Source of the DNA: Williamsia deligens
GTDB lineage: Bacteria; Actinomycetota; Actinomycetes; Mycobacteriales; Mycobacteriaceae
Length of the DNA stretch: 64,000 bases
NCBI RefSeq assembly: GCF_024171765.1
Contig: NZ_JAMTCI010000001.1
Location: 2,094,796 to 2,158,795 of the forward strand
Direction: 5' to 3'
Shown: positions 1 to 17,644 of the stretch, piece after piece
How the letters are laid out: the number at the start of each line of letters is the position of its first letter
Position numbering within the stretch: the first letter of the stretch is position 1
The notes under the pieces: model-generated
The model's input: the letters and a program-made list of their open reading frames with translations, nothing else
Databases searched by the model: none
What the model was told of the DNA's origin: nothing
Position numbers and translations under genes: made by a program

Positions 1-1303
1 AGATCGCCGGACCGCCGGTCGCGTTGTTCAGCGGGGTGAACGCCACCCACGAGACGAGGCGGGGGAACAACACGTCGAAACCGTTCGCCGGCGAGAGGTG
101 CCCGAGCGGGGGAGTGGTGTGCGCGACGGTGGGCGAGAGCATCACGTCGATGTCGCCGGCGAACGCGGCGCGGTACTTGCCCTCCGATGCCCGCAGCCGC
201 CACAGCGCGGCGGGGGTGCGCAGGAAGTTGCGTTGGAATCGCTTCGACAGTCCCGTCGTGAGGGACTCGAGATCGGACGCCTCGAAGTCCGGGCTCATGA
301 CGCGCCGGCCGAACCTGGTCAGGGCGAAGCCCAACATCGACCAGTAGTGCACGAAGTCGTCCTTGAACGCGACGAGATCCTTCTCCGGCAGCGGGAGCCC
401 GATGGGCACCAGGTCGTGACCGAGTGCGGCGAGGCGGTCGGCGGTCGCGGAGACCGCGGCCTGCGTCTCGCGGTCGACGGGGAGTTCGGCGATGGAGCGG
501 TCGACGATCCCGATCCGCAGACGTCGCTGCGCCGGTCCCTCGACCAGACCGATGGGCGTCATCGAGCGCGCCGGACGGTAGCGCTCCACCTGGGCGGCGA
601 ACCGGGCCGTGTCGCGGACGGTGCGGGTCAGGGCGCCGTTGCTCACGAGGTTCACGGGCATCTGGGCGGCGTGGTCGTCGGGGAGTTCGCGACCGCGCGT
701 GAACTTCAGGCCGACCAGCCCGCATGCCGCCGCGGGGATGCGGATCGATCCGCCGCCGTCGTTGGCGTGCGCGATGGGCACGACCCCCGACGCGACCAGC
801 ACCGCCGAGCCGCCCGACGACGCCCCGGCCGAGTACCCGGTGTTCCACGGGTTGGGTGTGGCGGGGCCGTCCTCGAACTCGGTGCTCGCGTTCAGCCCGA
901 ACTCCGGCATCCGTGACTTCCCCAGGCTGATCAGCCCGGTGGAGAGGAACTGGTCGGTGATGGGGGCGTTGCGTCGTGCGGGCCGTGCGTGCACAGCCCG
1001 CGACCCCTGGTTCGACGGGAGGCCCGCGACGTCGGTGTTGTCCTTCACGACGGTCGGCACGCCCGCGAAGACACCCTTGCCGGGACTGCGCGCGAACGAC
1101 CGCGCCCGGTCGAAGTCGGCGAGTTCGATCCCGTGCAGGCGGTCGACGGCCGCGGCACGCGCGATGGCGGCCTCGACGACCTCGGTGGCCGAGACCTCCC
1201 CGGACGCGATCCGCGCCGCGACACCGGTCGCGTCGTCGTCGCCCAGGGCGTCGTCGGTGAAGGCGTGGACCCTGACGTCGGTGTCGGGGGAGGAGTCCGT
1301 CAT
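1..1303 (-). CDS. Amidase signature family hydrolase (3' end outside window)
   Basis: Hydrolyses an amide to a carboxylate plus ammonia or amine; the substrate cannot be read from the sequence. About 434 residues are visible and the C-terminus runs off the left edge. The Ser-cisSer-Lys triad of amidases is visible: Lys87 in VVKDN, the glycine/serine-rich ASSGGS at residues 161-166, and the nucleophile Ser186 in GGGSIRIPAAACG. The ATG at 1303 is preceded by TATGGT (1310-1315) six bases upstream, so the transcript may be leaderless. It diverges from the GntR regulator, and a dyad operator (1355-1366) lies between them, so it probably belongs to the same regulon as the catabolic genes at 4.7-15.4 kb. 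Family call is firm; role in the pathway is inference. Confidence 0.9.
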   Translation of the reverse strand, partial: MTDSSPDTDVRVHAFTDDALGDDDATGVAARIASGEVSATEVVEAAIARAAAVDRLHGIELADFDRARSFARSPGKGVFAGVPTVVKDNTDVAGLPSNQGSRAVHARPARRNAPITDQFLSTGLISLGKSRMPEFGLNASTEFEDGPATPNPWNTGYSAGASSGGSAVLVASGVVPIAHANDGGGSIRIPAAACGLVGLKFTRGRELPDDHAAQMPVNLVSNGALTRTVRDTARFAAQVERYRPARSMTPIGLVEGPAQRRLRIGIVDRSIAELPVDRETQAAVSATADRLAALGHDLVPIGLPLPEKDLVAFKDDFVHYWSMLGFALTRFGRRVMSPDFEASDLESLTTGLSKRFQRNFLRTPAALWRLRASEGKYRAAFAGDIDVMLSPTVAHTTPPLGHLSPANGFDVLFPRLVSWVAFTPLNNATGGPAI

Positions 1304-1309
1304 CGGACG

Positions 1310-1315
1310 ACCATA
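1310..1315 (-). promoter_or_regulatory. Candidate -10 box of the amidase
   Basis: TATGGT on the minus strand, six bases from the ATG at 1303; the layout fits a leaderless actinobacterial promoter. No good -35 is visible. Confidence 0.35.
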
Positions 1316-1348
1316 TCCGGGGCGGACCGTGCCGATTCGGACATGTCT

Positions 1349-1371
1349 GGTTGGATTGTTGACAATCTACC
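1349..1371. promoter_or_regulatory. Dyad operator, copy 1 (candidate GntR/FCD site)
   Basis: Core ATTGTTGACAAT (1355-1366), i.e. ATTGT-NN-ACAAT, flanked by GGT (1349-1351) and ACC (1369-1371). The same core and flanks recur at 14365-14388 in the other divergent promoter of the cluster. The core contains a perfect TTGACA (1359-1364) pointing toward the GntR gene, so a bound repressor would cover its -35. FCD-type GntR proteins commonly bind TTGT..ACAA-like dyads. Assignment to the adjacent regulator is inference. Confidence 0.65.
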
Positions 1372-1389
1372 GAGGGGGCCGCACCATCG

Positions 1390-2187
1390 GTGCACCCGAA
1401 CGTTCTGCACATCATGGGGGTGCGCTCTGTCGTCCAACGAACATCGACCCGACGCGGGCCGTCGGTGACCGAGATGGCCGCCGGGTCGCGCCGACGCGTG
1501 TTGGCCCCGCTCGTCCAGGAGTCGACGCCGGCGATCATCGCGCGACAGCTCCGTGTCGCCATCGCCGACGGCGGCTTCCCGCCCGGGTCGCAGCTGACGG
1601 AGGCGGGTCTGGCCGCCGACCTCGGGGTGAGCCGCGGACCCCTGCGGGAGGCGATGCAGCGCCTCACCCAGGAGGGGTTGCTCGTCAGCCACCGCAACCG
1701 GGGCCTGTTCGTCATCTCCATGGACGACGACGACATCAACGACATGTACGTCGCGCGCACGGCGATCGAGCGCGCCGCACTCGCGCAGGTCGTCGCGCAC
1801 CACGACGACGACGATCTCGCCGAGCTCCGGGCGGCGATCGACCACATGCAGTCGTTCGCGGACGACCCCAACGGACGCGAGATCGCCGACGCGGACATGG
1901 CTTTTCACGCCCAGCTCGTGGAATGCGCACGCAGTCCACGGTTGTCGCGGATCCACGAGACGATCCTCGTCGAGACACGGATGTGTCTAGGAGCCATGCG
2001 GGGGACATACGCCTCGGCACAGGCGCGCATCGATGAGCACACCGATCTGCTCAGGGCGGTCGAGGTCCGAGACGCCGAGGCCGCCGACCGCCTCATGATC
2101 GCCCACATGCGTGACGGGTTGATGCGCCTGCTGCCCGAGGAATCCACCGAGACCGCCCGGGCAGTACCCCCCGAACACCCCAGTTGA
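1390..2187 (+). CDS. GntR-family transcriptional regulator, FCD (FadR-like) subfamily
   Basis: Ligand-responsive DNA-binding regulator, most likely the local regulator of the catabolic cluster. N-terminal winged helix (PGSQLTEAGLAADLGVSRGPLREAMQRL) is followed by an all-helical FCD domain that keeps the metal-binding pattern Asp-x3-His (DMAFH) and two later His (DEHTDLL, MIAHMRDG). FCD domains usually bind a carboxylate or acyl effector through such a metal. Start is uncertain: GTG 1390 has GAGGGGG upstream, but the TTGACA at 1359-1364 would place transcription start near 1394 and favour ATG 1414 or GTG 1465. It sits between divergent amidase and co-directional transporter. Known ectoine catabolic operons usually use a MocR-type regulator (EnuR), so an FCD regulator here would be a different arrangement. 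Confidence 0.88.
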   Translation: MHPNVLHIMGVRSVVQRTSTRRGPSVTEMAAGSRRRVLAPLVQESTPAIIARQLRVAIADGGFPPGSQLTEAGLAADLGVSRGPLREAMQRLTQEGLLVSHRNRGLFVISMDDDDINDMYVARTAIERAALAQVVAHHDDDDLAELRAAIDHMQSFADDPNGREIADADMAFHAQLVECARSPRLSRIHETILVETRMCLGAMRGTYASAQARIDEHTDLLRAVEVRDAEAADRLMIAHMRDGLMRLLPEESTETARAVPPEHPS

Positions 2188-2305
2188 CCTGCGGCCCTGT
2201 CGGAGAATGCCGCGCCGTACCGATGAAAGGGCTACGGTCGGACGGTCGGTCTGACGACCACGGGACACGACGCATGCGGTGCAACGACATGGCGGAGGAG
2301 CCACG

Positions 2306-3688
2306 ATGACCACCAATCTGTCGAAGGGCGATGCGGTGCCGGCCCTGCCCGACCCGGAGTCCGTCGAGGGACGGAAGCTGTTGCGCAAGGCGATCGGCGC
2401 ATCCGCGATGGGCAACGCGACCGAGTGGTACGACTACGGCGTCTACGCCGCGACGGCGACCTACCTGACGCAGGCGTTCTTCCCGGGCGACCTCGGCACG
2501 ATCGGCACGATGCTCGGGTTCGCCGTCTCGTTCGCGCTGCGCCCGCTCGGCGGCATGGTCTGGGGCCCGATCGGCGACCGGATCGGCCGCAAAGCCGTTC
2601 TCGCCATGACCATCCTGCTCATCTCGATCGCGACCGCCCTCATCGGTGTCCTGCCGACCCACGCGGTCGCGGGCGTGTGGGCGCCGATCCTCCTCATCGT
2701 CCTGCGCGTCGTGCAGGGCTTCTCCACCGGTGGTGAATACGGCGGCGCCGCAACGTTCATGGCCGAGTACGCACCGGATGCCAAGCGCGGCAAGTACGGC
2801 TCGTTCCTGGAATTCGGCACGCTCGCCGGATTCGTCCTCGGTACCGCCTTCGTGCTCGTCCTGGAGCTTAACCTCACCGACGACCAGATGCAGACCTGGG
2901 GCTGGCGCATCCCGTTCTTCTTCGCCCTGCCCCTGGGTCTCGTGGGTCTGTACCTGCGCAGCCAGATGGAGGACACACCCGTCTTCCGTGAGCTGGCGCA
3001 GAAGGGCGAGATCGAGGGGACGGCGTGGAGCCGCTTCGTCGATCTGCTGCGTGACTACCGTCGTCCGATCATCATCATGTTCGGCATGGTGATCGCGCTC
3101 AATGTCGCGAACTACACCCTGCTCGCCTATCTCCCGACGTACCTCAAGAACACGATCGGACTCGAGGGCAACGACAGCACCGTCACGATGCTCATCGGCC
3201 AGCTCGTGATGATGGCGTTGATCCCGGTGGTGGGGCGTCTGTCGGACCGCACGGGCCGTAAACCCATGTGGTGGGGCTCGCTGGTCGGGCTCTTCGTCTT
3301 CGCGCTGCCCATGTTCTGGCTGATGGGTCAGGGATTCGTCTGGGCCATCATCGGGTTCGTCGTCCTGGGCATTCTCTACATCCCGCAGCTCGCGACCATC
3401 TCGGCGACGTTCCCCGCCATGTTCCCGACCCAGGTGCGGTACGCCGGGTTCGCCATCTCCTACAACGTGGCGACCGCCGCGTTCGGCGGTACGGCGCCCC
3501 TCGTCAACGACGCGGTGGTCGAGAACAACAGCGGGTGGGACCTGTTCCCGGCCGGCTACATGATGATCGCGTGTGCCATCGGCATGGTGTCGATGGTGTT
3601 CCTGCGCGAGACCGTCGGCTGCTCACTGCGCGGCACCGAGATCCCCGGCCAGGCGACCGAGGCAGAGAAGGCATTGGCCTCCAGCTGA
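2306..3688 (+). CDS. MFS metabolite:H+ symporter, ProP-like
   Basis: Twelve-helix inner-membrane proton symporter of 460 residues. It closely follows E. coli ProP as I remember it: GNATEWYDYGVY near the N-terminus, the loop motif GDRIGRKAVL between TM2 and TM3, VQGFSTGGEYGGAATFMAEY, RGKYGSFLEFG, and GRLSDRTGRKP in the central loop. ProP takes up proline, glycine betaine and ectoine. There is no long C-terminal coiled coil such as E. coli ProP has; only about 20 residues follow the last helix. ATG 2306 is preceded by GGAGGAG. Placed just after the regulator, it is the likely importer of the cluster's substrate. Confidence 0.88.
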   Translation: MTTNLSKGDAVPALPDPESVEGRKLLRKAIGASAMGNATEWYDYGVYAATATYLTQAFFPGDLGTIGTMLGFAVSFALRPLGGMVWGPIGDRIGRKAVLAMTILLISIATALIGVLPTHAVAGVWAPILLIVLRVVQGFSTGGEYGGAATFMAEYAPDAKRGKYGSFLEFGTLAGFVLGTAFVLVLELNLTDDQMQTWGWRIPFFFALPLGLVGLYLRSQMEDTPVFRELAQKGEIEGTAWSRFVDLLRDYRRPIIIMFGMVIALNVANYTLLAYLPTYLKNTIGLEGNDSTVTMLIGQLVMMALIPVVGRLSDRTGRKPMWWGSLVGLFVFALPMFWLMGQGFVWAIIGFVVLGILYIPQLATISATFPAMFPTQVRYAGFAISYNVATAAFGGTAPLVNDAVVENNSGWDLFPAGYMMIACAIGMVSMVFLRETVGCSLRGTEIPGQATEAEKALASS

Positions 3689-4076
3689 TCTGGGCGCGTC
3701 CGTCCGAGAACCGCATCGGGAGCGATCGTCGTGGACACACCCTCCGCGAAGGTCGCTCCCCGTGCGTTTCTGAGCCGCTCAGCGCACCAGACGCTGCATC
3801 TTCGCCACGCGGCGGAGCGTCGGGTGGTAGCGGTCGATCATCGCCGGATGATCGCTGCGACCTCCCCTGGTACCTGGTGCCGATCACCATGGCTGTCGAG
3901 GACGCCGAGCCCGTCCGCATCATGGACCAGACCGCCCTGCGAGTACCACCCGGGACCCGGCACAGGGCCGTCGGAGGCCAACCACCGCCAGAATCGGCGT
4001 GACAATGCACGAGGAGGTCGGTCCATGTCCGCCTCCGACCGCACGGGACGGATCACCTGCCGTGTCGTCATGGAAC
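3689..4076. other. 388-bp gap with possible gene remnant and hairpin
   Basis: No convincing intact gene. Just after the transporter an inverted repeat GGGAGCGA (3718-3725) / TCGCTCCC (3753-3760) could form a hairpin. On the minus strand about 4050-3840 reads a protein-like stretch (RFWRWLASDGPVPGPGWYSQ...) that stops at 3838; in another frame a second stretch (AMIDRYHPTLRRVAKMQRLVR) ends near 3778. The pair would join by one frameshift and looks like a decayed small gene, but I recognise no family. Confidence 0.3.
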
Positions 4077-4676
4077 CTACCGTGGCCGGTCGAGATCGAC
4101 TGTCGGGCTGGGCAGTCCCCATTCCATGCGTCCGAGGCGGCTGACGGCGGCGAGCTTCGCGTAGTCGGGCATGCCGTCGTCGGCGAGGATCGCGGGATCG
4201 ATCGTGAGCGCGACGACCCGACCCATGACGACGACGCTGTTGCCGACCTCGATGCTGCGTTCCAGGCGGCACTCGATCGCGACGGGTGAGTCGCGCACCC
4301 GCAGACAGTCGACGGCGGTCGCGGGTGCCGAGGCGATGTCCGCCTCGACGAATTCGTCGATGTGCGAATCGAATCCGGCCGAACTCGCGTTCGCCTTCTC
4401 CATCAGGTCCTGTGTGGCGATGTTGATGACGAACTGTCCGGTCTCGATCGCGTTGCGTGCGCTGTCCTTCGCGCCACCCACCGACGTGAACTGCACGACC
4501 GGCGGCGCCGTCGACGACACCGAGAAGAAGCTGTACGGGGAGAGGTTGTCGACCCCGTCGGCGCTGCGGCTCGACACCCAGGCGATCGGGCGCGGGACGA
4601 TGCTCGACGTCAGCAGTTGGTAGAAGCGGCCGGGGTCGACCCCGGCGGGATCGTGCACGATGCGGTCGGTGCTCAT
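4077..4676 (-). CDS. Flavin reductase-like domain protein (FMN-binding split barrel)
   Basis: 199-residue protein of the flavin reductase-like (RutF/HpaC-type) split-barrel family. Typical features are VDPGRFYQLLTSSIVPRPIAWVSSRSADG at residues 9-37, where the FMN site is built, then NLSPYSFFSVSSTAPPVVQF and the conserved INIATQDLMEKANAS block. The family supplies reduced FMN to monooxygenases or acts as a flavoprotein of unknown role; several members closer to the PRPIAWVS type have no known partner. No oxygenase gene is visible nearby. It is last on the minus-strand run and separated from the M20 gene by a 100-bp repeat-rich gap that looks like a terminator, so it may be transcribed separately. 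Confidence 0.8.
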   Translation of the reverse strand: MSTDRIVHDPAGVDPGRFYQLLTSSIVPRPIAWVSSRSADGVDNLSPYSFFSVSSTAPPVVQFTSVGGAKDSARNAIETGQFVINIATQDLMEKANASSAGFDSHIDEFVEADIASAPATAVDCLRVRDSPVAIECRLERSIEVGNSVVVMGRVVALTIDPAILADDGMPDYAKLAAVSRLGRMEWGLPSPTVDLDRPR

Positions 4677-4717
4677 GCCACCAGTGTGCCGTCGTCCGGT
4701 TCCCGCGACCAGAACCG

Positions 4718-4768
4718 CCTCCCGCGACCGTCGCGACGGTCGCGGACGGGGGGAACGGTCGCGGGAGG
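4718..4768. terminator. Repeat-rich inverted repeat downstream of the M20 gene
   Basis: CCTCCCGCGACCGT (4718-4731) pairs perfectly with ACGGTCGCGGGAGG (4755-4768). A nested 20-bp perfect palindrome, GCGACCGTCGCGACGGTCGC, occupies 4724-4743. A further partial copy, TCCCGCGACCA, lies at about 4701-4711. Position right after the operon's last stop fits termination, but there is no T tract. Confidence 0.45.
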
Positions 4769-4776
4769 GCGTCGGG

Positions 4777-5997
4777 TCAGCCGAGGAGGCGCAGTGCGAG
4801 GACCGCGTAGGCCTTCGCCGCGGTGACGAGGTCGGCGACGGCGACCGATTCGTCGGGTTGGTGTGCCTGACCGTTGATGTCGCCGGGACCGAGGACGATG
4901 CAGTCGACGCCGAGGTCACGGTTGACGAACCCACCGTCGCAGGCCGCCGTCCATCCGCCGATCGACGTCTCACCGCCGGCGGCGGTCACCGCGTCGACGG
5001 CTGCGCGCACGAACGGGTGGTCGGGGGAGGTACGGAACCCGGGCATCGACATCGTCACGGCGATGTCCACCTCGATGCCGTCGGTGTCGATCGCCCGCCG
5101 CTCCACCTCGGCCCGCAGCGACGCGGCGATGGCCTCGGCATCCTCGTCGGGCATGAGGCGCCGGTCGATGCCGATCGCGCAGTTCGGTGCGACGGCCGAG
5201 ATGCCCTGGCCGCCGGTGATGGTGCCGACGTTCCACGTACCCGCCCCCAGCAGCGGGTCGAGGTAGGCCTGCATCCCGTCGTGGTCGGACCGGATGATGT
5301 CGATGACCTTCGCGGCGGCGTCGATGGCGTTGCGGCCGTCCGCCGGTCGGCCGGAATGCGCAGCGCGCCCGCGGATCTCGATCTCGATGTACGACGCACC
5401 GCGGCAGGCGATCACGGTCTCCATGTCGGTGGGCTCGGCCACCACGCACCCCACGTGGCCGCCGGGATGCAGGGGATAGGACGCAGGGTCGCCGACGAGG
5501 TCGCGGACGCCGACGCCGTGTTCCTCCTCGTCGACGGTGCACACCAGCTGGACCGGCCCCGAGAGCCGTTCGCCCTGCAGCGCGGACATCGCGGCGACGA
5601 TCGCCGCCAATCCGCCCTTCATGTCGGTGCTGCCGCGACCGACGATCCGTTCCTCGTCCACCCGCGCGACGAACGGGTCGCCGGTCCACCCGGGACCGGG
5701 CGGGACGACGTCGGAGTGGCCCAGGAACATCAGGCCGGGGCCGTCCCCGCCGGGCAGGGTGGCGACGAGGTTCGGCCGCCCGGCCGCCACCTCGCGGATC
5801 TCGACGGTCGCACCGGCGCGGTCGGCTGCCGCCCGCAGGACAGCGACCGCGTCGGCCTCGGTCCCTCCGGGGTTGACGCTCGGGGCCTCGATCAACGCCG
5901 ACGTCAGGGACACGATCGTCGCGGCGTCGACGCGATCGCACACCGACTGCTCGCGGGACGGGTCGGCGACGGGCGTGCTGGTCCGGGCGTGGGTCAC
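4777..5997 (-). CDS. M20-family metallopeptidase/deacylase (ArgE/DapE/acetylornithine deacetylase-like)
   Basis: 406-residue cytosolic zinc amidohydrolase. Di-metal site motifs are all present: GHSDVVPPG (His and Asp nearby), STDMKGG (bridging Asp), DEEEHG (catalytic and metal Glu), and a His near the C-terminus in NGQAHQPDES; the dimerisation lid carries RGRAAHSGRP. Members remove acyl groups from amino acids such as N-acetylornithine or succinyl-DAP. In this operon it could deacetylate an N-acetyl-2,4-diaminobutyrate produced by the M24 hydrolase, a step done by an unrelated aspartoacylase-type enzyme (DoeB) in known ectoine pathways; that role is inference. GTG start overlaps the upstream aminotransferase stop (GTGA), so the two are translationally coupled. 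Confidence 0.85.
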   Translation of the reverse strand: MTHARTSTPVADPSREQSVCDRVDAATIVSLTSALIEAPSVNPGGTEADAVAVLRAAADRAGATVEIREVAAGRPNLVATLPGGDGPGLMFLGHSDVVPPGPGWTGDPFVARVDEERIVGRGSTDMKGGLAAIVAAMSALQGERLSGPVQLVCTVDEEEHGVGVRDLVGDPASYPLHPGGHVGCVVAEPTDMETVIACRGASYIEIEIRGRAAHSGRPADGRNAIDAAAKVIDIIRSDHDGMQAYLDPLLGAGTWNVGTITGGQGISAVAPNCAIGIDRRLMPDEDAEAIAASLRAEVERRAIDTDGIEVDIAVTMSMPGFRTSPDHPFVRAAVDAVTAAGGETSIGGWTAACDGGFVNRDLGVDCIVLGPGDINGQAHQPDESVAVADLVTAAKAYAVLALRLLG

Positions 5998-7220
5998 GCG
6001 ATCATCTTCTCAAGGCTCGTGGTGAGCCGCTTGATCCCTTCCTCGATGCGGTCGGGTGTGCTGGACGCGAAGCAGAGCCGCAGCGCGTTGCGGAAGCGTC
6101 CACCGGGCGACAGCGCCGGCCCGGGGATGAACGCGACGCCGTCGGCCAGCGCGACCTCGAACAGCTCGCGGGTGTCGATCTCGCCGAACTCCCCGGTCAA
6201 CGTGAGCCAGAGGAAGAATCCGCCGTCGGGGTTCGTCGTGGTGACCCGGTCGCCGAGGTGGCGGGCGATCGAGTCGAGCATGGCGTCCTTGCGCTCGCGG
6301 TAGAGCCCGCGGATCCGCTCGAGGTGGTCCTCGAGCCCACCGCGCGCGATGTACTCGGCGACGATGTGCTGGTTGGGCACGTTGGTGCACGTGTCCATCG
6401 CCTGCTTGCCGTTGATGAGCAGCTGTCGCAGCGACGGGTCGGCGTCGACCCATCCCACGCGCCACCCGGGGGCGAGGATCTTGGAGAACGTGCGCACCGA
6501 GAACAGCAGCGGGTCGTCGGGGCTCAGCGTGCGGAAGGTCGGGATGTCGGTTCCGTTGAAGCGCAGCAGACCGTAGGGGTCGTCGTCGATGATGACCGAT
6601 CCCCACCGGTGTGCCAGCTCCAGCAACGCCTTACGCCGTTCCAGCGAGAGCGTGACGCCGGACGGGTTCTGGAAGGTGGGGATGGTGTAGATCGCCTTCG
6701 GGGGCCGATGGTGATGCGCCACCAGGTCTTCCATCATGTCGACGCGCATACCGTCGTCGTCGACGGGGATCTCGAGCAGCTGCGCACCGTAGGAGAGGGC
6801 GGTGGCGCTGCCGTTGGTGTACGTCGGCGACTCGACCACCACCAGGTCGCCGGGGTCGACGAAGAGCTTGCATGCCAGGTCCAGTCCCTGCATGCCGCCG
6901 GTGGTGATGACCAAGCGGTCCTCGCTGGACGGATCAGGGGTCCCCGCCAGGTATTTGACCAACAGCTCCAGGAGCCGCGGCTCGCCCTCGGTGGCGCCGT
7001 AGGTGAACGACGAGCTGTCCAGGACGGACCCGGCGATCTCACGGAATTCCTCCGACGGCACGGCCTCGTCGGCCGGGGAGCCCATCGCGAACCGCACGAT
7101 GTCGTGCTTCTGCGCCGCGAGCAGGGACGTCGACGAGTCGATCATCGACCCCACGAGGTCCTTCGCCCGGCCGGCGAGCGGGAGGGTCGGACTGCTGTGC
7201 GCCAGTTCGGTGGCGGTCAT
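5994..7220 (-). CDS. PLP-dependent class I/II aminotransferase (LysN/2-aminoadipate type)
   Basis: 408-residue fold-type I aminotransferase. The PLP-lysine motif is RTFSKILAPGWRVGW; the substrate-carboxylate region YTIPTFQNPSGVTLSLERR and IIDDDPYGLLRF are typical of the 2-aminoadipate/valine-pyruvate branch. That branch is also the one fused to helix-turn-helix domains in MocR regulators such as EnuR; here it stands alone without DNA-binding domain. It probably transaminates an intermediate of the pathway with 2-oxoglutarate. It lies 34 bp downstream of the M24 gene and overlaps the M20 gene by four bases. Which amino group it handles, given the second (class III) aminotransferase in the operon, cannot be told from sequence. 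Confidence 0.85.
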   Translation of the reverse strand: MTATELAHSSPTLPLAGRAKDLVGSMIDSSTSLLAAQKHDIVRFAMGSPADEAVPSEEFREIAGSVLDSSSFTYGATEGEPRLLELLVKYLAGTPDPSSEDRLVITTGGMQGLDLACKLFVDPGDLVVVESPTYTNGSATALSYGAQLLEIPVDDDGMRVDMMEDLVAHHHRPPKAIYTIPTFQNPSGVTLSLERRKALLELAHRWGSVIIDDDPYGLLRFNGTDIPTFRTLSPDDPLLFSVRTFSKILAPGWRVGWVDADPSLRQLLINGKQAMDTCTNVPNQHIVAEYIARGGLEDHLERIRGLYRERKDAMLDSIARHLGDRVTTTNPDGGFFLWLTLTGEFGEIDTRELFEVALADGVAFIPGPALSPGGRFRNALRLCFASSTPDRIEEGIKRLTTSLEKMIA

Positions 7221-7254
7221 GGTCGCTCCTTCGTGGTCGCGTGCATCGGTGTGG

Positions 7255-8448: not shown

Positions 8449-8458
8449 AGGTCGCCTC

Positions 8459-9931
8459 TCAGGTCCGCGGGATGGCCAGGTACTTGACCTCGAGGAACTC
8501 CTCGATGCCGACGCGCCCGCCCTCACGGCCGAGGCCGGACTCCTTCACGCCGCCGAACGGCGCGGCGGGGTTCGAGACCAGCCCGGTGTTCAGGCCGACC
8601 ATCCCCACCTCGAGCTTCGCCGACAGCCGCATGGCGCGGTCGATGTCCTGGGTGAAGATGTAGCCGACGAGCCCCCACGGCGTGCCGTTGGCCAGGCGCA
8701 GCATCGCGTCCTCGTCGTCGAACGGGACGAGAGCGGCGACCGGGCCGAAGATCTCGGTCGCCATCAGGTCCGAGTCGGCGCTGACATCGGTGAGGACGGT
8801 GGGCGGATAGAAGTATCCCGGTCCGTCCGGCACGGTGCCACCGCACATGACGGTCGCACCCCGCGCGACCGCGTCGTCGACCAGTTCGCGCACCTTCGTC
8901 TGCGCCTTCTGCTCGACCAGCGGGCCGACCTGCGTCCCGTCGGCGGCACCGTCACCGACGACGAGCGCGCTCATCCGTGACGTCAGCTTCGCCGCGAACT
9001 CGTCGACGACATCGCGGTGCACGAAGATCCGGTTCGCCGCGGTGCAGGCCTCGCCCATGTTGCGCATCTTGGCGACCATGGCGCCCTCGACCGCGCGGTC
9101 GACGTCGGCGTCGGCGCACACCACGAACGGCGCGTTGCCCCCGAGCTCCATCGACGTGCGCATCACGGTCCCGGACGCCTGCTGCAGCAGCAGTTTCCCG
9201 ACCTGGGTGGACCCGGTGAAGCTGATCTTGCGGGCGAGCCCGCTCTCCATCCACTCCGTCACCACCGGCCCGGGGTCGTTGGTGGGGACGATGTTCAGCA
9301 CACCGGCGGGGAGGCCGGCCTCGACGAGGATGTCGGCGAGAGCCAACGACGTGAGCGGGGTCAGCTCGGCCGGCTTGAACACCATGGTGCAGCCGGCGGC
9401 GATCGCGGGCCCGATCTTGCGGGTCCCCATCGCGAGGGGGAAGTTCCACGGTGTGATGAGCACGCACGGCCCCACCGGCTCCTTGGTCACGATGATGCGG
9501 TTCGCGCCGTCGCCGGTGGTGGTGTGGTCGCCGCCGATGCGGACGGCCTCCTCGGCGAACCAGCGGAAGAACTCGGCCCCGTAGGCGACCTCGCCCTTGG
9601 CCTCGGCGAAGGGCTTGCCCATCTCCGTGGTCATGATGAGGGCGAGTTCGTCCGTGCGCTCGAGGATGAGGCGGTGTGCGCGGTAGAGGATCTCGCTGCG
9701 CGAGCGGGGGGAGGTGGCGGCCCACGACTCCTGGGTGGCCGCGGCCGTCTCGATCGCGCGACGCGCATCGGCCGCGCCCCCGTCGGCGACGGTCGCGATC
9801 TGCTCACCGGTGGCGGGGTTGACGACGGGGAACGTCGCCCCGGATTCCGCCGGTGTCCATTTGCCGTCGATGAACAGTCCGGTCTCGAGCGCGCGGATGA
9901 GGTCGGCTGCGGATCGGCCGGTGTCGCTCAC
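8459..9931 (-). CDS. NAD(P)-dependent aldehyde dehydrogenase (succinate/aspartate-semialdehyde type)
   Basis: 490-residue ALDH closest to the GabD branch. It shows the substrate/cofactor stretch ITPWNFPLAMGTRKIGPAIAAG, the NAD-loop FTGSTQVGK, the general base Glu in MELGGNAPF, the nucleophile Cys in GEACTAANR and the C-terminal PFGGVKESGLGREGG. It oxidises a semialdehyde to the acid; in an ectoine-type route the substrate would be aspartate-4-semialdehyde (role of DoeC), with succinate semialdehyde as the main alternative. GTG start overlaps the stop of the FAD/Fe-S gene (GTGA) and the M24 gene starts 10 bp after its own stop, so it is embedded in the operon. Confidence 0.9.
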   Translation of the reverse strand: MSDTGRSAADLIRALETGLFIDGKWTPAESGATFPVVNPATGEQIATVADGGAADARRAIETAAATQESWAATSPRSRSEILYRAHRLILERTDELALIMTTEMGKPFAEAKGEVAYGAEFFRWFAEEAVRIGGDHTTTGDGANRIIVTKEPVGPCVLITPWNFPLAMGTRKIGPAIAAGCTMVFKPAELTPLTSLALADILVEAGLPAGVLNIVPTNDPGPVVTEWMESGLARKISFTGSTQVGKLLLQQASGTVMRTSMELGGNAPFVVCADADVDRAVEGAMVAKMRNMGEACTAANRIFVHRDVVDEFAAKLTSRMSALVVGDGAADGTQVGPLVEQKAQTKVRELVDDAVARGATVMCGGTVPDGPGYFYPPTVLTDVSADSDLMATEIFGPVAALVPFDDEDAMLRLANGTPWGLVGYIFTQDIDRAMRLSAKLEVGMVGLNTGLVSNPAAPFGGVKESGLGREGGRVGIEEFLEVKYLAIPRT

Positions 9932-12900
9932 GGTGTCTCCCTGTCGGTGCGGGTGGGAACGGGTGCCGACACTGCGGTGTGTCGTGGTCGTGCGGGGTCG
10001 ATCAGTTCGGCGAGGTGGGTGCCGGTGACGGCGTCGATGGCCGCGTCGACCCCGGCGAGATGGTCGACCGCCATGGCACAGCTGAAACCGTCGGTCAGGA
10101 CGGGTTCGTCGGGACCGCGGTCACGGAGCGCGGGGGCGAGTGCCTGCTCACCGACGGCCATCCCGACCTCGTAGTGTCCGCGTTCGAAACCGAAGTTGCC
10201 TGCGACGCCGCAGCATCCGTCGGCGGACCGGACATCGGCCACGCCGAGTCGGCGCAGGACCGACGCCTGGGTTGACGGACCGAACACCGCGTACTCGTGG
10301 CAGTGGGTCTGCACGGTGACCGCGGACGGGACCGGCGGCGGCGTCCATCCGTCGTCGAGCATGGTGTCGACATGGGTCGCGAAGCTGCGTACGCGGTCGG
10401 CGACGCGGCGTGCGGCGTCGGTGTGGACGAGCTCGGGCAGGTCCTTGTGCAGCGCCGCGGCACAACTCGGCTCCGGCACGACGATGGGCCGGTCGGTGCC
10501 GTCGTCGAGTGCTGCGGCGGTGCGCGTCAGCACCTTCCGCGCGCGATCGAGCTGACCGGTCGAGATCCAGGTGAGGGCGCAGCAGTTGTCCTTCTCGCAG
10601 CTGACCGCCTCCGCGCCGCCCATCACCCGTGCAGCCGATTCCGCGACCTCCGGGCGGAACGCCCGGGTGAACGAGTCGACGAACAGCACGACGGGGGCGC
10701 TGTCGCGGCGGGTCAGCGTGGCGAGCGCCGCGCGGACACGCTTGCGGCGTGCGAACCGGGGCATCGACCGCCGGGCGTCGAGACCGGCGACGCGCGCCGC
10801 GGGTGCGGCGAGACGGGTCCCGAGCACCGCGTTGATCATCGGCGCCGCGGCGGTCGCCATGCCCAGCCACGCCGGCATCCACCCCAGTGAGTAGTGCGAC
10901 ATGGGGCGCTTGCGGCCCTTGTAGTGGTGGTGGAAGAACTCCGCCTTGTAGGTGGCCATGTCGACGCCCGTCGGGCAGTCGGTGGAACACGCCTTGCAGG
11001 ACAGGCACAGCTCGAGTGACTCGCGGACGTCGTCGGAGCGCCAGCCGGTCTCGACGTCCGGGGCCGATCGCAGCATCTCCTGCAGCACGCGGGCGCGGGC
11101 ACGGGTCGAGTCCTTCTCGTCGCGGGTCGCGCGGTAGCTGGGACACATCACCCCGCCGCTGTGCGAGCGGCACCGCCCGACACCGATGCACGCCTGCGTG
11201 GCGTGGACGAACGGGTCGAGGTCGCTGCCCGCGGGCACGTCGGTGTCCGGGCTGTGGGCGGGTCCCGGGACCCCGAGGTCGAACGCGGTGGTCCAGGTCC
11301 GCCGGGGGATGCCCGCCAGCGCGAGGTCGTCGCCGATCGGGGAGGGGTCGACGATGCTGCCGGGGTTGAGCAGACCGGTGGGGTCCCAGATGCGCTTGAA
11401 CCGTTCGAACAGCCGGATCATCTCCGGCGAGTACATGATCGGCAGCAGCTCGGAGCGGGCCCGGCCGTCGCCGTGTTCGCCCGACAGTGACCCGCCGTGG
11501 TCGACGACGAGCTGCGCGGCGTCGCGGACGAACGCGAGCATGGTGGCGCGTCCGGACTCCGTCCGCTGGTCGAACGTCACGCGCACATGCATGCACCCGG
11601 CGCCGAAATGGCCGTACATGACGCCGGTGAGGCCGTGGTGGTCCAGCAGGGCGCGGAACCCCTCGAGGTATTCGGGCAGACGTTCCGGCGCGACGGCGGA
11701 ATCCTCCCAGCCGGGCCAGGACTCGTACCCGGAACCGGCGTCCGGGTCGTCGAGGTCGACCAATCGCGACGACAGGCCGGCGCCGTCCTCCCGGACCCGC
11801 CACAGCATCGACCGCGCCGCGGGATCGGTGACGGTGCGGGTGTCGACGAGCCGACCGTTCGCGCGGAGTTTGTCGGCGAGATCGGCCACAGCACGGGGGA
11901 TGTCGGCCACGTCGCCGCCGACGCTGTGCTCGTCGAGTTCGATGTACAACCACGCGTTGCCGTCGGGGAGTCCGTCGACCGAGGCGCGCCCGCGCCGGGC
12001 CCGCATGGTGGCGACGATGCGTTCGTCGATGCCCTCGATGGCCGACGGCGCGAAGTCGAGCATGGTGGGCACGTCGCGCGCGGCGTCGACGACGTCGCGA
12101 TAGCCGACGCACAGCAGATGGGGATGCACCGACACCGGCACCAGCGAGACGGTCGCGGCGACGACGATCGCGCAGGTGCCCTCGCTGCCGACCAGCGCAC
12201 GGGCGACATGGAATCCATGCTCGGGCAGCAGCTGGGCGAGGTGGTACCCGGAGACCTGGCGGGGGATGCGTTCGAGCTCGACGCGCAGCGGCGCGAGGTT
12301 CTCGCCGGCCAGTGCCCGCAGATCGCGGTCGATCTCCTCGGCGCGGCGGACCGCGGCGGCGTCGGAGGTGTCGACGGCGCGGATCCCGGATGCGGTGGCG
12401 AGCAGCAGGTGTCCGTCCGCGGTGGCGACGGTGACGTCGACGACGTGGTCGGTGGTACGTCCGTACCGGACCGAGTGGTTGCCACATGCGTCGTTGCCGA
12501 TCGCGCCGCCGAGACAGGCGCGCGACTGGCTCGACGGATCGGGCGCGAACGTCAGGGTGCCGTCGCTGGCCGACCGGACCTGCGCCTGCAGCGACGTCAG
12601 GACGACTCCCGCCTCGGCGGTGGCCGTGGCCGTCGCGACGTCGACGGCGGTCACGCGCGTCATGTGCCGGGAGAGGTCGAGCACCACACCGGCGCCGATC
12701 GCGTTGCCGCCCATGCCGGTTCCGCCGCCGCGCGGGATGACGGGGACACCGGTGCGATGGCACCACGCCACCGCTGTCGCGACCTCGTGGGCGTCGCGTG
12801 GGAACACGACGCACAGCGGACGCAGCCGGTAGTTGGACGCGTCATACGAGTACTCGGCGCGGCGGCGCGTCGAGTCGTCGGCGAGCAGCCCGAGGTCACG

Positions 12901-12960
12901 CAGCGCGCGTCCGGCCGCTGCGGCGTCGACGGTCGACGCCGCGGAGGTGGTGGAGGTCAT
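9928..12960 (-). CDS. FAD-linked D-2-hydroxyacid dehydrogenase with fused Fe-S/CCG module (YdiJ/GlcD-GlcF-like)
   Basis: 1010-residue two-part flavoprotein. The N-terminal half is a VAO-type FAD domain (PRGGGTGMGG at residues 76-85, NDACGNHSVRYGRTTDHV) followed by the FAD-oxidase C-terminal domain (MYGHFGAGCMHVRV, SGEHGDGRARS). The C-terminal half has two cluster motifs (CIGVGRC...CPSY near 590, CLSCKACSTDC near 652) and two CCG-type segments (CEKDNCC near 786, CCGVAGNFGF near 920) as in GlcF/LdhE. Such enzymes oxidise D-2-hydroxyacids (D-lactate, glycolate, D-2-hydroxyglutarate) and pass electrons to the quinone pool at the membrane. Length matches YdiJ-type D-2-hydroxyglutarate dehydrogenases. 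It is not part of known ectoine routes; with the NAD enzyme at 14.4 kb it suggests that a 2-hydroxyacid is an intermediate. Confidence 0.87.
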   Translation of the reverse strand: MTSTTSAASTVDAAAAGRALRDLGLLADDSTRRRAEYSYDASNYRLRPLCVVFPRDAHEVATAVAWCHRTGVPVIPRGGGTGMGGNAIGAGVVLDLSRHMTRVTAVDVATATATAEAGVVLTSLQAQVRSASDGTLTFAPDPSSQSRACLGGAIGNDACGNHSVRYGRTTDHVVDVTVATADGHLLLATASGIRAVDTSDAAAVRRAEEIDRDLRALAGENLAPLRVELERIPRQVSGYHLAQLLPEHGFHVARALVGSEGTCAIVVAATVSLVPVSVHPHLLCVGYRDVVDAARDVPTMLDFAPSAIEGIDERIVATMRARRGRASVDGLPDGNAWLYIELDEHSVGGDVADIPRAVADLADKLRANGRLVDTRTVTDPAARSMLWRVREDGAGLSSRLVDLDDPDAGSGYESWPGWEDSAVAPERLPEYLEGFRALLDHHGLTGVMYGHFGAGCMHVRVTFDQRTESGRATMLAFVRDAAQLVVDHGGSLSGEHGDGRARSELLPIMYSPEMIRLFERFKRIWDPTGLLNPGSIVDPSPIGDDLALAGIPRRTWTTAFDLGVPGPAHSPDTDVPAGSDLDPFVHATQACIGVGRCRSHSGGVMCPSYRATRDEKDSTRARARVLQEMLRSAPDVETGWRSDDVRESLELCLSCKACSTDCPTGVDMATYKAEFFHHHYKGRKRPMSHYSLGWMPAWLGMATAAAPMINAVLGTRLAAPAARVAGLDARRSMPRFARRKRVRAALATLTRRDSAPVVLFVDSFTRAFRPEVAESAARVMGGAEAVSCEKDNCCALTWISTGQLDRARKVLTRTAAALDDGTDRPIVVPEPSCAAALHKDLPELVHTDAARRVADRVRSFATHVDTMLDDGWTPPPVPSAVTVQTHCHEYAVFGPSTQASVLRRLGVADVRSADGCCGVAGNFGFERGHYEVGMAVGEQALAPALRDRGPDEPVLTDGFSCAMAVDHLAGVDAAIDAVTGTHLAELIDPARPRHTAVSAPVPTRTDRETP

Positions 12961-12979
12961 GGGTGTCGACGCCCCGGCG

Positions 12980-14341
12980 TCAGGCCAGGGCGTCGTCGAC
13001 AGCGGCGGCGAACCGCTGCAGACCGGCGGTGATCTCGTCCTCGGTGACCACGAGGGCGGGGATGAGACGGACGACGTTGCCGAGCGGACCGCAGGTGAGG
13101 GTGAGCAGGTCGTGGCCGATGCACGCCTGCTGGACGGCAGCGGCGGCCGCCGCGTCCGGCACGGGCACCGCACCGGCGGCGGACGGGTCGACGAACTCGA
13201 TCCCGGCCATCAACCCGCGTCCCCGGACGTCCCCGATGCGGGGGTTGCGGGCCTTGATCTCCTCGAGCCCCGCGAGCAGCTGATCCCCGCGGATGCGGGC
13301 GTTCTCGACGAGGTTCTCGTCGCGGATCACGGCGAGCGTCTCGACACCCGCGGCGGCGGCCACGGCGTTGCCACCGTAGGTGCCGCCCTGCGAACCGGGC
13401 CACGCCTTGCTCATCAGCTCGGTCGACGCCGCGATGGCCGAGATCGGGAAGCCCGAGGCGATGCCCTTGGCCGTGATGAGGATGTCGGGGACGACGCCCT
13501 CGGCGAACTGATGGCCCCAGAAGCGGCCCGTGCGGCCGACACCGGCCTGCACCTCGTCGACGATGAGCACGATCCCGAGGCGGTCCGCGCGCTCGCGCAG
13601 ACCCTGGAGGAAGGCGGGCGGGGTGGGCAGGTAGCCGCCGTCGCCGAGCACCGGCTCGATGAGCATGGCGGCGGTGTCGTTCGGTGCGACCCGCGAGGCG
13701 AAGAGGTAGTCGAGCTCACGGAGTGCGAACTCGACCGCTGCGGTCTCGTCCATGCCGTAGCGGTAGGAGTAGGGGAACGGTGCCATGTGCACACCGCTCA
13801 TGAGGGGGGAGAAGCCCGCCGAGAACTTCGTGCCGGCGGTGGTGAGGCTGGCCGCGGCGACGGTGCGGCCGTGGAACCCGCCCTGGAACACGACGATGTT
13901 CGGTTTCCCGGTGGCCATGCGCGCCAGTCGGATCGACGCCTCGACGGCCTCGGACCCGGAGTTCGCGTAGAACACGGAGTCGAGCCCGTCGGGGAGGACC
14001 TCGCCCAGCGCGTCGGTCAGTGCGAGGAGCGGCTGGTGCATCACCGTCGTGTACTGCGCGTGGATGATCTTCCCGCACTGTTCCTGCGCCGCGGCGACGA
14101 CGCGGGGGTGGCAGTGGCCGGTGCTCGTGACGCCGATGCCGGTCGTGAAGTCGAGGTAGTCGCGTCCGTCGGTGCCGTGGATCCACGACCCCTGCGCGTG
14201 GTCGACGATGACCGGTGTGGCCTGTTTCAGCGCCGGGCTGAGCGTCGCGCGCGGTGCCCGGGCACCGGGGGCCGCAGCCGTCGTCTGTTGCGTGCCGGCG
14301 GCACTCGCCGCGGGGGAGCCTGAGGCCAGGGTGGACGTCAT
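12980..14341 (-). CDS. Class III aminotransferase (4-aminobutyrate/diaminobutyrate type)
   Basis: 453-residue PLP enzyme. Motifs: HCHPRVVAAAQEQ, NSGSEAVEASIRLARMATG, FQGGFHGRTVAAASLT, the PLP Asp in IVDEVQAGVGRTG and the Schiff-base Lys in ITAKGIASGFPISA. Members move an omega-amino group (GABA, beta-alanine, 2,4-diaminobutyrate, ornithine) to a keto acid. In the proposed route it would take the 4-amino group of 2,4-diaminobutyrate to give aspartate semialdehyde (the DoeD step). The first about 30 residues are Ala/Thr/Pro-rich and likely disordered. First gene of the operon; ATG 14341 lies 30 bp from the dyad operator, with TTGACA on the minus strand inside that operator and CACCCT seven bases before the start. 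Confidence 0.88.
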   Translation of the reverse strand: MTSTLASGSPAASAAGTQQTTAAAPGARAPRATLSPALKQATPVIVDHAQGSWIHGTDGRDYLDFTTGIGVTSTGHCHPRVVAAAQEQCGKIIHAQYTTVMHQPLLALTDALGEVLPDGLDSVFYANSGSEAVEASIRLARMATGKPNIVVFQGGFHGRTVAAASLTTAGTKFSAGFSPLMSGVHMAPFPYSYRYGMDETAAVEFALRELDYLFASRVAPNDTAAMLIEPVLGDGGYLPTPPAFLQGLRERADRLGIVLIVDEVQAGVGRTGRFWGHQFAEGVVPDILITAKGIASGFPISAIAASTELMSKAWPGSQGGTYGGNAVAAAAGVETLAVIRDENLVENARIRGDQLLAGLEEIKARNPRIGDVRGRGLMAGIEFVDPSAAGAVPVPDAAAAAAVQQACIGHDLLTLTCGPLGNVVRLIPALVVTEDEITAGLQRFAAAVDDALA

Positions 14342-14360
14342 GCAGCACAGGGTGACCGCC

Positions 14361-14392
14361 GGATGGTCGGATTGTCAACAATTGGACCATCC
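14361..14392. promoter_or_regulatory. Dyad operator, copy 2, inside a larger inverted repeat
   Basis: Core ATTGTCAACAAT (14371-14382) is the reverse complement of copy 1 at 1355-1366. Flanking GGT (14365-14367) and ACC (14386-14388) are shared with copy 1. Here the core also sits between perfect outer arms GGATGGTC (14361-14368) and GACCATCC (14385-14392). It lies in the divergent promoter region of the aminotransferase operon and the hydroxyacid dehydrogenase gene and includes a minus-strand TTGACA that can serve as -35 for the operon. Confidence 0.7.
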
Positions 14393-14446
14393 GGCTCGAG
14401 CCGCGTCGGATCGTGCCGTCGCCGACCTCGCTCTACGGTGGGCTCC

Positions 14447-15418
14447 GTGACTGTCCAGCCGGTGCGCCTGACCGTTCTCACCCGCGACGACCTCGCCCCG
14501 CCACACAACCTCGACGCGATCCGTGAACTGGCCGACGTACGCCTCACCACCGCCGCGGATCTGTCCCGTGACCTGCAGGGGAGCGATGCCCTCCTGCTGT
14601 GGGACTACTTCTCGTCGGCCCTGCGGGACGCCTGGGACGGCGCGGACGCGCTGCGCTGGGTCCACGTCTGCGCCGCCGGGGTGGACGCCATGCTGTTCGA
14701 CGGGCTGCGTGCCTCCGACGTCACCGTCACCAACGCCCGCGGCGTGTTCGACGGGCCGATCGCCGAGTTCGTCCTCGCCTCGATCCTTGCCCGCGACAAG
14801 CAGCTGCACCGCAGCCGCGCCCTCCAACGCGACCACGTCTGGGAGTGGCGTGAGACGCGACGGACCACCGGGTCGACCGCGCTGGTGGTCGGCACCGGCG
14901 GCATCGGGCGCGCCGTCGCCCGCCTCCTGCGGGCTGTGGGGATCGCGGTGACCGGCGCCGGACGCACCGCCCGGGACGAGGACCCCGACTTCGGCACGGT
15001 CGTGTCCACCGACGACCTCGTCGACCACGTCGCCGACGCCGACACCGTCGTGCTCATCGCGCCGCTCACCGAGCAGACCGCCGGCCTCGTCGACGCCCGC
15101 GTCCTGGCCGCGATGAAGCCGGACGCACACCTGATCAACGTCGGACGCGGTGCGCTCGTCGTCGAGAGCGATCTCGTCGACGCCCTGCGCGACGGGACCA
15201 TCGGTGCGGCGTCACTCGATGTCGTCGACACCGAACCCCTCCCCGGCGACAGTCCGCTCTGGGACATGGACCAGGTGGCCATCTCGCCCCACATGAGCGG
15301 CGACGTGGTCGGCTGGCGTGACGAGCTGGCCGACCAGTTCCTCGTCCGGCTGCGCGCCTACGCCGCAGGCGACGAACTGCAGGGAGCGGTCGACAAGGAC
15401 AGGGGATACGTCCACTGA
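14447..15418 (+). CDS. NAD(P)-dependent D-2-hydroxyacid dehydrogenase
   Basis: 323-residue cytosolic dehydrogenase of the D-isomer-specific 2-hydroxyacid family, interconverting a 2-oxoacid and its D-2-hydroxyacid. The Rossmann motif is VVGTGGIGRAVARLL; the catalytic set is Arg in NVGRGALV, Glu in VVDTEPLP and His in AISPHMSG. GTG 14447 is selected because homologues begin shortly before the first beta strand (VRLTVLTRDD); the frame is open upstream but has no better start. It diverges from the catabolic operon across operator copy 2, so it is probably co-regulated. Coupled with the FAD-linked enzyme it could oxidise or reduce a keto-acid side product. Confidence 0.85.
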   Translation: MTVQPVRLTVLTRDDLAPPHNLDAIRELADVRLTTAADLSRDLQGSDALLLWDYFSSALRDAWDGADALRWVHVCAAGVDAMLFDGLRASDVTVTNARGVFDGPIAEFVLASILARDKQLHRSRALQRDHVWEWRETRRTTGSTALVVGTGGIGRAVARLLRAVGIAVTGAGRTARDEDPDFGTVVSTDDLVDHVADADTVVLIAPLTEQTAGLVDARVLAAMKPDAHLINVGRGALVVESDLVDALRDGTIGAASLDVVDTEPLPGDSPLWDMDQVAISPHMSGDVVGWRDELADQFLVRLRAYAAGDELQGAVDKDRGYVH

Positions 15419-15539
15419 CATCGGGCCGGGCGACACGCCACCGGGTTCGTCGACGGGTTCACAGACGCATCTCAGGGTCGGCTCCTAGCCTCGGCGACGA
15501 CATGTGGGAGACCGCACGGCAGGTGAGGAGGTCGATCGG

Positions 15540-16010: not shown

Positions 16011-16072
16011 CTCCGTCGTGTCGACCGCGCTCACCGCTGTTCGTCGAGGCCCGCCGGATAGTCTGTAGCGCG

Positions 16073-17032: not shown

Positions 17033-17057
17033 CCGCAGCAGAAGGAGACCGCGCACG

Positions 17058-17588: not shown

Positions 17589-17644
17589 CCGGCCCCGACG
17601 ACCCCGTCGGCCCGACCGAATGGGTCACCGGGACATCGGAACCC

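Follow-up and report, generated by a model that had tools for sequence, protein, structure and literature searches.

The first 15,418 positions of a 64,000-nucleotide stretch of the Williamsia deligens genome (contig NZ_JAMTCI010000001.1, positions 2,094,796 to 2,158,795; hereafter the window) contain a gene cluster built around an M24-family hydrolase that resembles DoeA, the hydrolase of ectoine degradation. A preliminary description of the window had assigned the cluster to ectoine-like catabolism with a non-standard gene set. All the genes named there are open reading frames of the stated families, and an additional flavin-reductase-like gene was found. The best overall explanation, to which we give a probability of about 65%, is that the cluster is one catabolic regulon, predicted to be controlled by its own FCD-domain GntR regulator (FCD) through the palindromic operator ATTGTNNACAAT. 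Most likely, the cell uses it to feed on ectoine, a protectant against salt stress, with an enzyme set different from that of the known pathway.

Seven genes run head to tail on the minus strand, from 14341 down to 4077. The first encodes a class III aminotransferase (AT3, 12980..14341) that profile matches and solved relatives show to be similar to γ-aminobutyrate and acetylornithine aminotransferases. It is followed by a FAD/Fe-S D-2-hydroxyacid dehydrogenase, a YdiJ-like fusion (9928..12960, start approximate; 394 of 1350 bits), an aldehyde dehydrogenase (ALDH) of the succinate-semialdehyde type (8459..9931; TIGR01780 571 bits, below the cut-off of 646) and the M24 hydrolase (7255..8448, with a GTG start at 8448). 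The remaining three are a class I/II aminotransferase of the LysN/2-aminoadipate aminotransferase type, lacking a helix-turn-helix domain (AT1, 5994..7220), an ArgE/DapE-like M20 deacylase assigned by profile and domain matches (4777..5997), and the flavin-reductase-like protein (about 4077..4676, PF01613, start estimated). The plus strand carries the regulator (1390..2187; PF07729 and PF00392; start codon uncertain) and a ProP-like symporter of the MHS family (2279..3688; 383 bits on the ProP model, below the cut-off of 544). An amidase of the PRK07869 type (1..1303, minus strand, start at 1303; 574 bits in NCBIfam, cut-off 418) diverges from the regulator. It extends about 140 bases beyond the left edge of the window, and the full-length protein has 480 residues (locus L008). 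A D-isomer 2-hydroxyacid dehydrogenase of the NAD(P) type (2HADH, 14447..15418, plus strand, PF02826) diverges from AT3. Although its reading frame opens at 14363, an operator falls inside the 14363-14447 stretch, so that the start is probably the GTG at 14447.

The operator was found among the palindromes common to the promoters of the cluster. One copy, ATTGTTGACAAT (14-bp form GATTGTTGACAATC), is situated between the amidase and the regulator at 1355..1366 and is conserved in relatives. The other, ATTGTCAACAAT, is positioned at 14371..14382, where AT3 and 2HADH diverge from each other, which makes 2HADH a probable member of the regulon. Both perfect copies of ATTGTNNACAAT in the whole 4.41 Mb genome are within the cluster, compared to 0.14 copies expected by chance (simple base-composition model) and none of a reversed control pattern. 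When two mismatches are allowed the window has four sites, which is not above chance, and the claim rests on the perfect copies. The palindrome is common to the promoters of the regulator and of its predicted targets, and FCD is the predicted binder. As the preliminary description had noted, an FCD-type GntR protein takes the place of the MocR-type EnuR, and the cluster has no AsnC-type DoeX either. The possibility that AT1 is a remnant EnuR was considered and rejected: LysN-type aminotransferases are close to it, and its score on the EhuR model is low (125 of 480 bits).

A scan of genome contigs matched 153 stretches, 147 of which encode relatives, and the best 80 were kept. Fifty-seven of these loci (L020-L076) were tabulated, from Williamsia, Gordonia, Micrococcaceae, Brevibacterium, Mobilicoccus, Arsenicicoccus and one labelled Kitasatospora. 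These loci contain 107 perfect copies of the operator (119 with one mismatch), and none of any of 19 palindromes with permuted half-site letters. The site is present in all 39 loci that bear FCD and in 11 of the 18 in which FCD was not detected in the available stretch; all seven loci without the site belong to the latter group (Fisher p 0.00012, uncorrected for kinship). The 119 positions are distributed over the starts of AT3 or 2HADH (47), M24 (14), FCD (13), the amidase (4) and the symporter (3). The remaining 38 are elsewhere; these were inspected in nine loci and in selected genome stretches, and some adjoin further regulon genes. Eleven genomes have 43 sites of the 12-bp pattern and none of the control, and in six of them (G000, G636, G637, G638, G642 and G129) all sites are near the cluster. 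The operator also makes the regulon easy to recognize in genome sequences.

Gene presence was counted in the 45 loci that have at least 9.9 kb on each side, with identity thresholds of 38-55% depending on the gene and half of the query covered. AT1 and M20 are each present in 42 of these loci, ALDH and the symporter in 38, AT3 in 36, 2HADH and FCD in 35 and the FAD/Fe-S protein in 34; with this recurrence, the grouping of the enzymes is not a matter of chance. The second aminotransferase and the two 2-hydroxyacid dehydrogenases, listed in the preliminary description as peculiarities together with the amidase, thus recur in relatives. The amidase rarely does: that of the window (at least 50% identity) and the flavin reductase (40%) occur in 4 of the 45 loci each, and both, rejected as core parts, are local additions. 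A different amidase is found in 23 of the 57 loci and adjoins operators in those inspected, so an amidase step may be part of the wider regulon. The gene order varies by lineage. 2HADH directly precedes M24 in one group of Arthrobacter, whereas Gordonia and Williamsia have it in divergent orientation to AT3. In locus L032, labelled Kitasatospora arboriphila NRRL B-24581, the M24 protein is an exact duplicate of another entry, apparently (from their equal identity values) L029 from Williamsia muralis, and the label or the assembly is suspect. Adjoining the cluster, at 15504-19070 of the window, are genes that by eye resemble pyrE and those of a DedA protein and a TrmH-type methyltransferase; a similar neighborhood is found in Gordonia L014.

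The M24 protein is 95-96% identical to proteins of W. serinedens and an uncultured Williamsia. Its nearest solved structure is DoeA of Halomonas elongata (E 4e-104, 42% identity), whereas the best prolidase match has an E value of 7e-22. The prolidase metal ligands appear, by eye in the alignments, to be replaced as they are in DoeA. A prolidase or peptidase function was therefore rejected, and the branching with prolidases that would have spoken against an ectoine-type substrate was not seen. A tree, with no creatinase included, was calculated from the 101 sequences retained of 127 matches plus H. elongata DoeA; partial or overlong sequences (L016, L018, L019, L129, L095), L001-L011, L014, L015, L017 and exact duplicates were omitted. 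The 58 actinobacterial sequences of this M24 kind form one clade (support 100/96). Beside it, another clade (96/82) unites DoeA, seven other actinobacterial proteins and four proteobacterial paralog lineages. The seven actinobacterial proteins score 573-651 bits on DoeA, four of them above the cut-off.

The three segments that the preliminary description had singled out, GGDYPAIVP, YHCPLARTV and YPPDWGERT, are all literally present in the translation of 7255-8448. GGDYPAIVP and YHxP are kept in the M24 clade (with GGDYTAIVP in L061), in DoeA, in Priestia and in haloarchaea, and differ in the Mesorhizobium, SAR116 and Bosea paralogs shown. YPPDWGERT is found in the M24 clade and DoeA; Priestia, one Mesorhizobium paralog and haloarchaea have GEHT instead. 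The segments compared were picked after the invariant columns had been seen, which biases averages, and only the named substitutions are used here. The paralog lineages of Mesorhizobium, SAR116 and Bosea (L079, L080, L087, L094, L099, L089) have changed segments and some are located beside an M20 gene; perhaps they hydrolyze other solutes. Judged from these comparisons, the M24 protein is a relative of DoeA and probably works like it, without being classed as DoeA.

The proposal of an ectoine-type substrate is strengthened by transporters in Arthrobacter. In Arthrobacter G305 and G639 the operator is positioned just upstream of EhuB, the head of the Ehu gene set. The G305 proteins all pass the NCBIfam equivalog cut-offs (given in brackets): EhuB with 267 bits (191), EhuC with 264 (197), EhuD with 264 (205) and EhuA with 376 (345). 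EhuA and EhuC of locus L052 (Arthrobacter sp. MAHUQ-56), which belongs to G639, pass as well, and so does EhuB in G129. The sharing of the palindrome with a complete EhuBCDA importer in G305 supports the ectoine reading, as does the closeness of the M24 protein to the solved DoeA. The window itself has only the ProP-like MHS symporter, which is below its cut-off; the Ehu equivalogs belong to the regulon of the Arthrobacter relatives. ProP-type carriers import ectoine.

The genome of W. deligens itself encodes EctA, EctB and EctC. The ectABC genes (C2, about 503555-508950; L149:3556-8951) have a second D-2-hydroxyacid dehydrogenase gene directly behind them and a sirtuin-like gene at a greater distance. 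EctD was not recognized among the genes scored beside ectABC, and no genome-wide search for EctD was made. In G160, some 9 kb separate ectABC and a sirtuin-like gene from the catabolic cluster; this proximity, seen in one genome only, was judged to be weak evidence and was set aside.

The regulons of relatives also contain EutA-like proteins of the arylmalonate-decarboxylase family, an amidase, DUF3830 and Rid. Over the 57 loci, a first EutA-like gene was counted in 19, a second in 10, DUF3830 in 26, this second amidase in 23 and Rid in three. Four EutA-like proteins that were scored reach 83-92 bits against the EutA cut-off of 318 and are not EutA by that test. In Arthrobacter, and to some extent in Gordonia, operator sites adjoin DUF3830, the amidase, the two EutA-like genes and Rid (L052:14614-18852, L189:2954-9412). 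The window has no Ehu, EutA-like, DUF3830 or Rid gene, nor the amidase of the relatives. Perhaps this set constitutes a hydroxyectoine branch.

Several observations weigh against the assignment to ectoine. The M24 protein reaches 413.7 bits on the DoeA/EutD model TIGR02993 and misses the equivalog cut-off of 613. Its clade is deep and lies outside the group formed by DoeA and the four proteobacterial paralog lineages, in a midpoint-rooted tree with long outgroup branches. Its loop GYNAWSFYTPQ, at the position where DoeA, Priestia and haloarchaea have GYDGWSFYVHQ, resembles that of the paralogs, so a related solute is conceivable. Mesorhizobium G632, G634 and G635 each have a true DoeA (more than 820 bits) accompanied by two or three others that score 146-460 bits; several functions are probably represented in the DoeA-like superfamily. 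Few relatives have Ehu, with EhuC in 3 of the 57 loci besides the separate G305 stretch and EhuB in G129, and none was seen in the Williamsia or Gordonia loci among those examined. The EutA-like proteins, DUF3830 and the second amidase are unaccounted for by the route proposed below. Finally, of the perfect operator sites inspected in the 11 genomes, five are beside apparently unrelated genes: two in G639 (C20), one in G160 (C5) and two in G081, where one of the pair is at another FCD-type gene.

Some of these points could be accommodated if the substrate were a related solute, another cyclic amidine or N-acyl diamino acid, imported by Ehu and ProP-type carriers. The score below the DoeA cut-off, the separate clade, the altered N-terminal loop and the accessory amidase, DUF3830 and EutA-like genes would all agree with such a substrate. 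It is nevertheless improbable, given the four Ehu proteins of G305 above their cut-offs under the common operator, the ectABC genes of the host and, in the cluster-bearing Arthrobacter G639, a next DoeA-like match of only 151 bits. Taken together, the sequence data show a real, conserved and apparently co-regulated catabolic unit that very probably serves ectoine-type solutes.

In the proposed pathway, the MHS symporter would import ectoine, and possibly 5-hydroxyectoine too, with EhuBCDA serving in some Arthrobacter. The M24 hydrolase would open the ectoine ring to give N-α-acetyl-2,4-diaminobutyrate, known as the DoeA product (PMC3187862, PMC8739950), and the M20 protein would then remove the acetyl group to yield diaminobutyrate. 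It is likely that import and the M24 and M20 steps work in this way, like the DoeA-DoeB pair. DoeB/EutE (TIGR02994, E up to 0.001) was found in none of the 11 cluster-bearing genomes searched, which makes M20 the candidate deacetylase.

N-α-acetyl-diaminobutyrate is one carbon shorter than N-α-acetylornithine, and M20 enzymes are established hydrolases of N-acyl amino acids. The M20 protein of the window matches 50 families; it is below every curated cut-off among the 25 shown, and DoeB2 is not one of these 25. An M20 gene adjoins M24 in six of the seven actinobacterial loci of the DoeA clade (L100-L106), and M20 is also present in the Priestia cluster. The substitution of M20 for DoeB, pointed out in the preliminary description, therefore holds, but it is not unique to this cluster. 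The one M20 protein scored from the DoeA-clade loci (L148) passes the acetylornithine-deacetylase model with 376 bits (cut-off 298). Beside it are an EhuB above its cut-off, an EutB-like protein with 391 of 413 bits (missed) and a protein with 425 of 408 bits on the cyclodeaminase model and 384 of 472 on the EutC model (missed). Other Gram-positive M24 clusters (actinobacterial L142-L148, whose M24 proteins score 573-651 bits on DoeA, and Priestia L135-L136) combine M20 with, in part, EutB-like, EutC-like and cystathionine-γ-synthase-like genes. They may represent a further variant, in which a pyridoxal-phosphate enzyme acts by γ-elimination.

The M20 protein could also act later. If AT3 came before deacetylation, N-acetyl-aspartate semialdehyde would be formed and oxidized by ALDH to N-acetyl-aspartate, from which M20 would release aspartate, and AT1 would convert aspartate to oxaloacetate. 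AT3 scores 387 bits on the acetylornithine-aminotransferase family, missing its cut-off of 552, and the established activity of M20 enzymes on N-acyl amino acids agrees with this order. It is very unlikely, however, because several lineages keep M20 next to M24 with no AT3 resembling that of the window found nearby, and because it leaves 2HADH and the FAD/Fe-S protein idle.

What follows diaminobutyrate is less certain. In the known lower route, DoeD forms aspartate semialdehyde and DoeC converts it to aspartate (PMC3187862). The preliminary description had seen all steps to aspartate in the cluster. The enzyme classes are indeed present; AT1, 2HADH and the FAD/Fe-S protein are left jobless, and an unproven route through D-2-hydroxy acids appears to fit the gene set better. 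AT1, the proposed α-transaminase, would take the α-amine off diaminobutyrate to give 4-amino-2-oxobutanoate, and 2HADH would reduce this to D-4-amino-2-hydroxybutanoate. β-Aminoketones eliminate ammonia, and the reduction would also prevent such an elimination to a reactive vinyl keto acid. AT3 would remove the remaining γ-amine to give D-malate semialdehyde, ALDH would oxidize this to D-malate and the FAD/Fe-S enzyme would oxidize D-malate to oxaloacetate.

Among the solved relatives of AT1 are enzymes that act on the α-amine, namely 2-aminoadipate and kynurenine aminotransferases, and the FAD/Fe-S protein is related to D-lactate and D-2-hydroxyglutarate dehydrogenases. Of 298 genomes sampled from the order, four carry M24 (E up to 1e-60), and exactly these four carry AT1 (E up to 1e-110). 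This coincidence, and the presence of AT1 in more of the full-flank loci than AT3, support the D-2-hydroxyacid route, as does the recurrence of 2HADH and the FAD/Fe-S protein in haloarchaeal clusters described below. Other facts tell against it. As many as 66 of the 298 genomes encode 2HADH-like proteins (E up to 1e-60) and 183 encode FAD/Fe-S-like proteins (E up to 1e-150), mostly without M24, and may be general enzymes; the FAD/Fe-S protein is absent from 11 of the 45 full-flank loci and 2HADH from 10. This distribution indicates that AT1 goes with M24, while 2HADH and the FAD/Fe-S protein were recruited from wider families. Furthermore, E. coli YdiJ is described as strict for D-2-hydroxyglutarate, with D-malate not used (PMC9504171). 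According to this paper and PMC10034468, D-malate is oxidized by the human, P. aeruginosa and P. stutzeri D-2-hydroxyglutarate dehydrogenases but not by the YdiJ-type enzymes of E. coli and P. ananatis. Overall, α-deamination followed by the D-2-hydroxyacid route has slightly less than an even chance. No report of 4-amino-2-hydroxybutyrate with ectoine, or of diaminobutyrate with the proposed intermediates, was found in the open-licence literature, and no description of this cluster or route was found in the titles and opening parts of abstracts of that literature.

The classical order is an alternative to the D-2-hydroxyacid route. M24 and M20 would be followed by AT3, giving aspartate semialdehyde, and by ALDH, giving aspartate; AT1 would be a dedicated aspartate aminotransferase, and 2HADH and the FAD/Fe-S protein would catalyze side reactions. 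AT3 and ALDH belong to the enzyme classes of DoeD and DoeC, and the H. elongata pathway is established by mutants (PMC3187862). This order is still rather unlikely here, since it gives no role to 2HADH, which is under an operator common with AT3 and recurs in haloarchaea, and since AT1 is kept with M24 more tightly than AT3 is (42 versus 36 of 45 loci).

The haloarchaeal parallel comes from eight of the 16 haloarchaeal entries among the 40 listed of 361 M24 records, whose neighborhoods were read from their annotations. 2HADH, an amidohydrolase, a threonine ammonia-lyase/dehydratase and a class III aminotransferase are present in all eight clusters, although in Natrialba the aminotransferase is at some distance from M24. 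A BCCT carrier is present in seven, the FAD/Fe-S protein in five, an adjacent GdhB in four and an aldehyde:ferredoxin oxidoreductase in three. AT1 is annotated in none of the eight. The M24 proteins are 46% alike between the window and haloarchaea and the other matching proteins 30-36%. The haloarchaeal amidohydrolase has no match to the M20 of the window at E 1e-5, and one such protein (L138) reaches 96 of 550 bits on the DoeB2 model. A single dehydratase was scored; it is above a threonine ammonia-lyase cut-off and below that of EutB. By its cut-off, the single GdhB that was scored is a true glutamate dehydrogenase, which gives no support to α-deamination.

A dehydratase acting on 3-hydroxy-diaminobutyrate, derived from hydroxyectoine, would yield the same 4-amino-2-oxobutanoate that AT1 would form from diaminobutyrate. 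Such a common intermediate would explain why 2HADH and, frequently, the FAD/Fe-S protein are found in both actinobacterial and haloarchaeal clusters. We tentatively suggest that the two groups proceed in parallel, removing the α-nitrogen first, with AT1 for ectoine and the threonine-dehydratase-type enzyme for hydroxyectoine, trapping the product as a D-2-hydroxy acid and continuing through D-malate semialdehyde and D-malate to oxaloacetate; this wider scheme is somewhat more doubtful than the actinobacterial route itself. If true, the candidate pathway would account for the extra genes of both kinds of cluster. The cluster, its operator and the Ehu genes of relatives point to Arthrobacter, Gordonia and Williamsia as strains for testing ectoine catabolism.

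The Williamsia cluster has M24, a deacylase, a class III aminotransferase and a semialdehyde-type ALDH in common with the proteobacterial doeABXCD/eutABCDE operons (H. elongata, S. meliloti, R. pomeroyi), and the Ehu importer of these operons is shared by some of its relatives. It differs in having M20 for the aspartoacylase-type DoeB and an FCD-type GntR protein with its own operator for EnuR or DoeX, and in the addition of AT1, 2HADH and the FAD/Fe-S protein. No match to EutB, EutC or DoeB was found in the 57 relative loci. A 2026 survey (PMC13188858) describes putative, provisional ectoine clusters in Bacillota, Actinomycetota and archaea, with the Gram-positive types pucR-eutBCD-atf and abgB-thrA-adh and with abgB in Bacillota clusters. 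Like the Priestia plasmid cluster, the Gram-positive clusters of that survey combine M24 with M20, ALDH and an MFS carrier. The window differs from both in lacking EutB, EutC and the cystathionine-synthase-like and homoserine-dehydrogenase-like proteins and in having AT1, 2HADH and the FAD/Fe-S protein. Gordonia, Arthrobacter, Williamsia and M20 do not occur in the main text of the survey, which reached Gram-positive bacteria through EutD and EutB and could thus miss clusters without EutB.

The haloarchaeal M24-BCCT clusters of Natrialba, Halorussus and Haladaptatus share with the window M24, an amidohydrolase, a class III aminotransferase, a D-2-hydroxyacid dehydrogenase and often the FAD/Fe-S protein; they differ in the threonine-dehydratase-type enzyme, in having no annotated AT1, in the BCCT carrier and, in some, in the aldehyde:ferredoxin oxidoreductase. 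The names of the DoeA_2 and DoeB2 families (NF038259, NF038260) likewise pair an M24 hydrolase family with a different deacetylase family, and the M24 protein of the window scores 212 of 575 bits on the DoeA_2 model. The cluster therefore differs from the known pathway in its regulator, in its deacylase and perhaps in its lower pathway.

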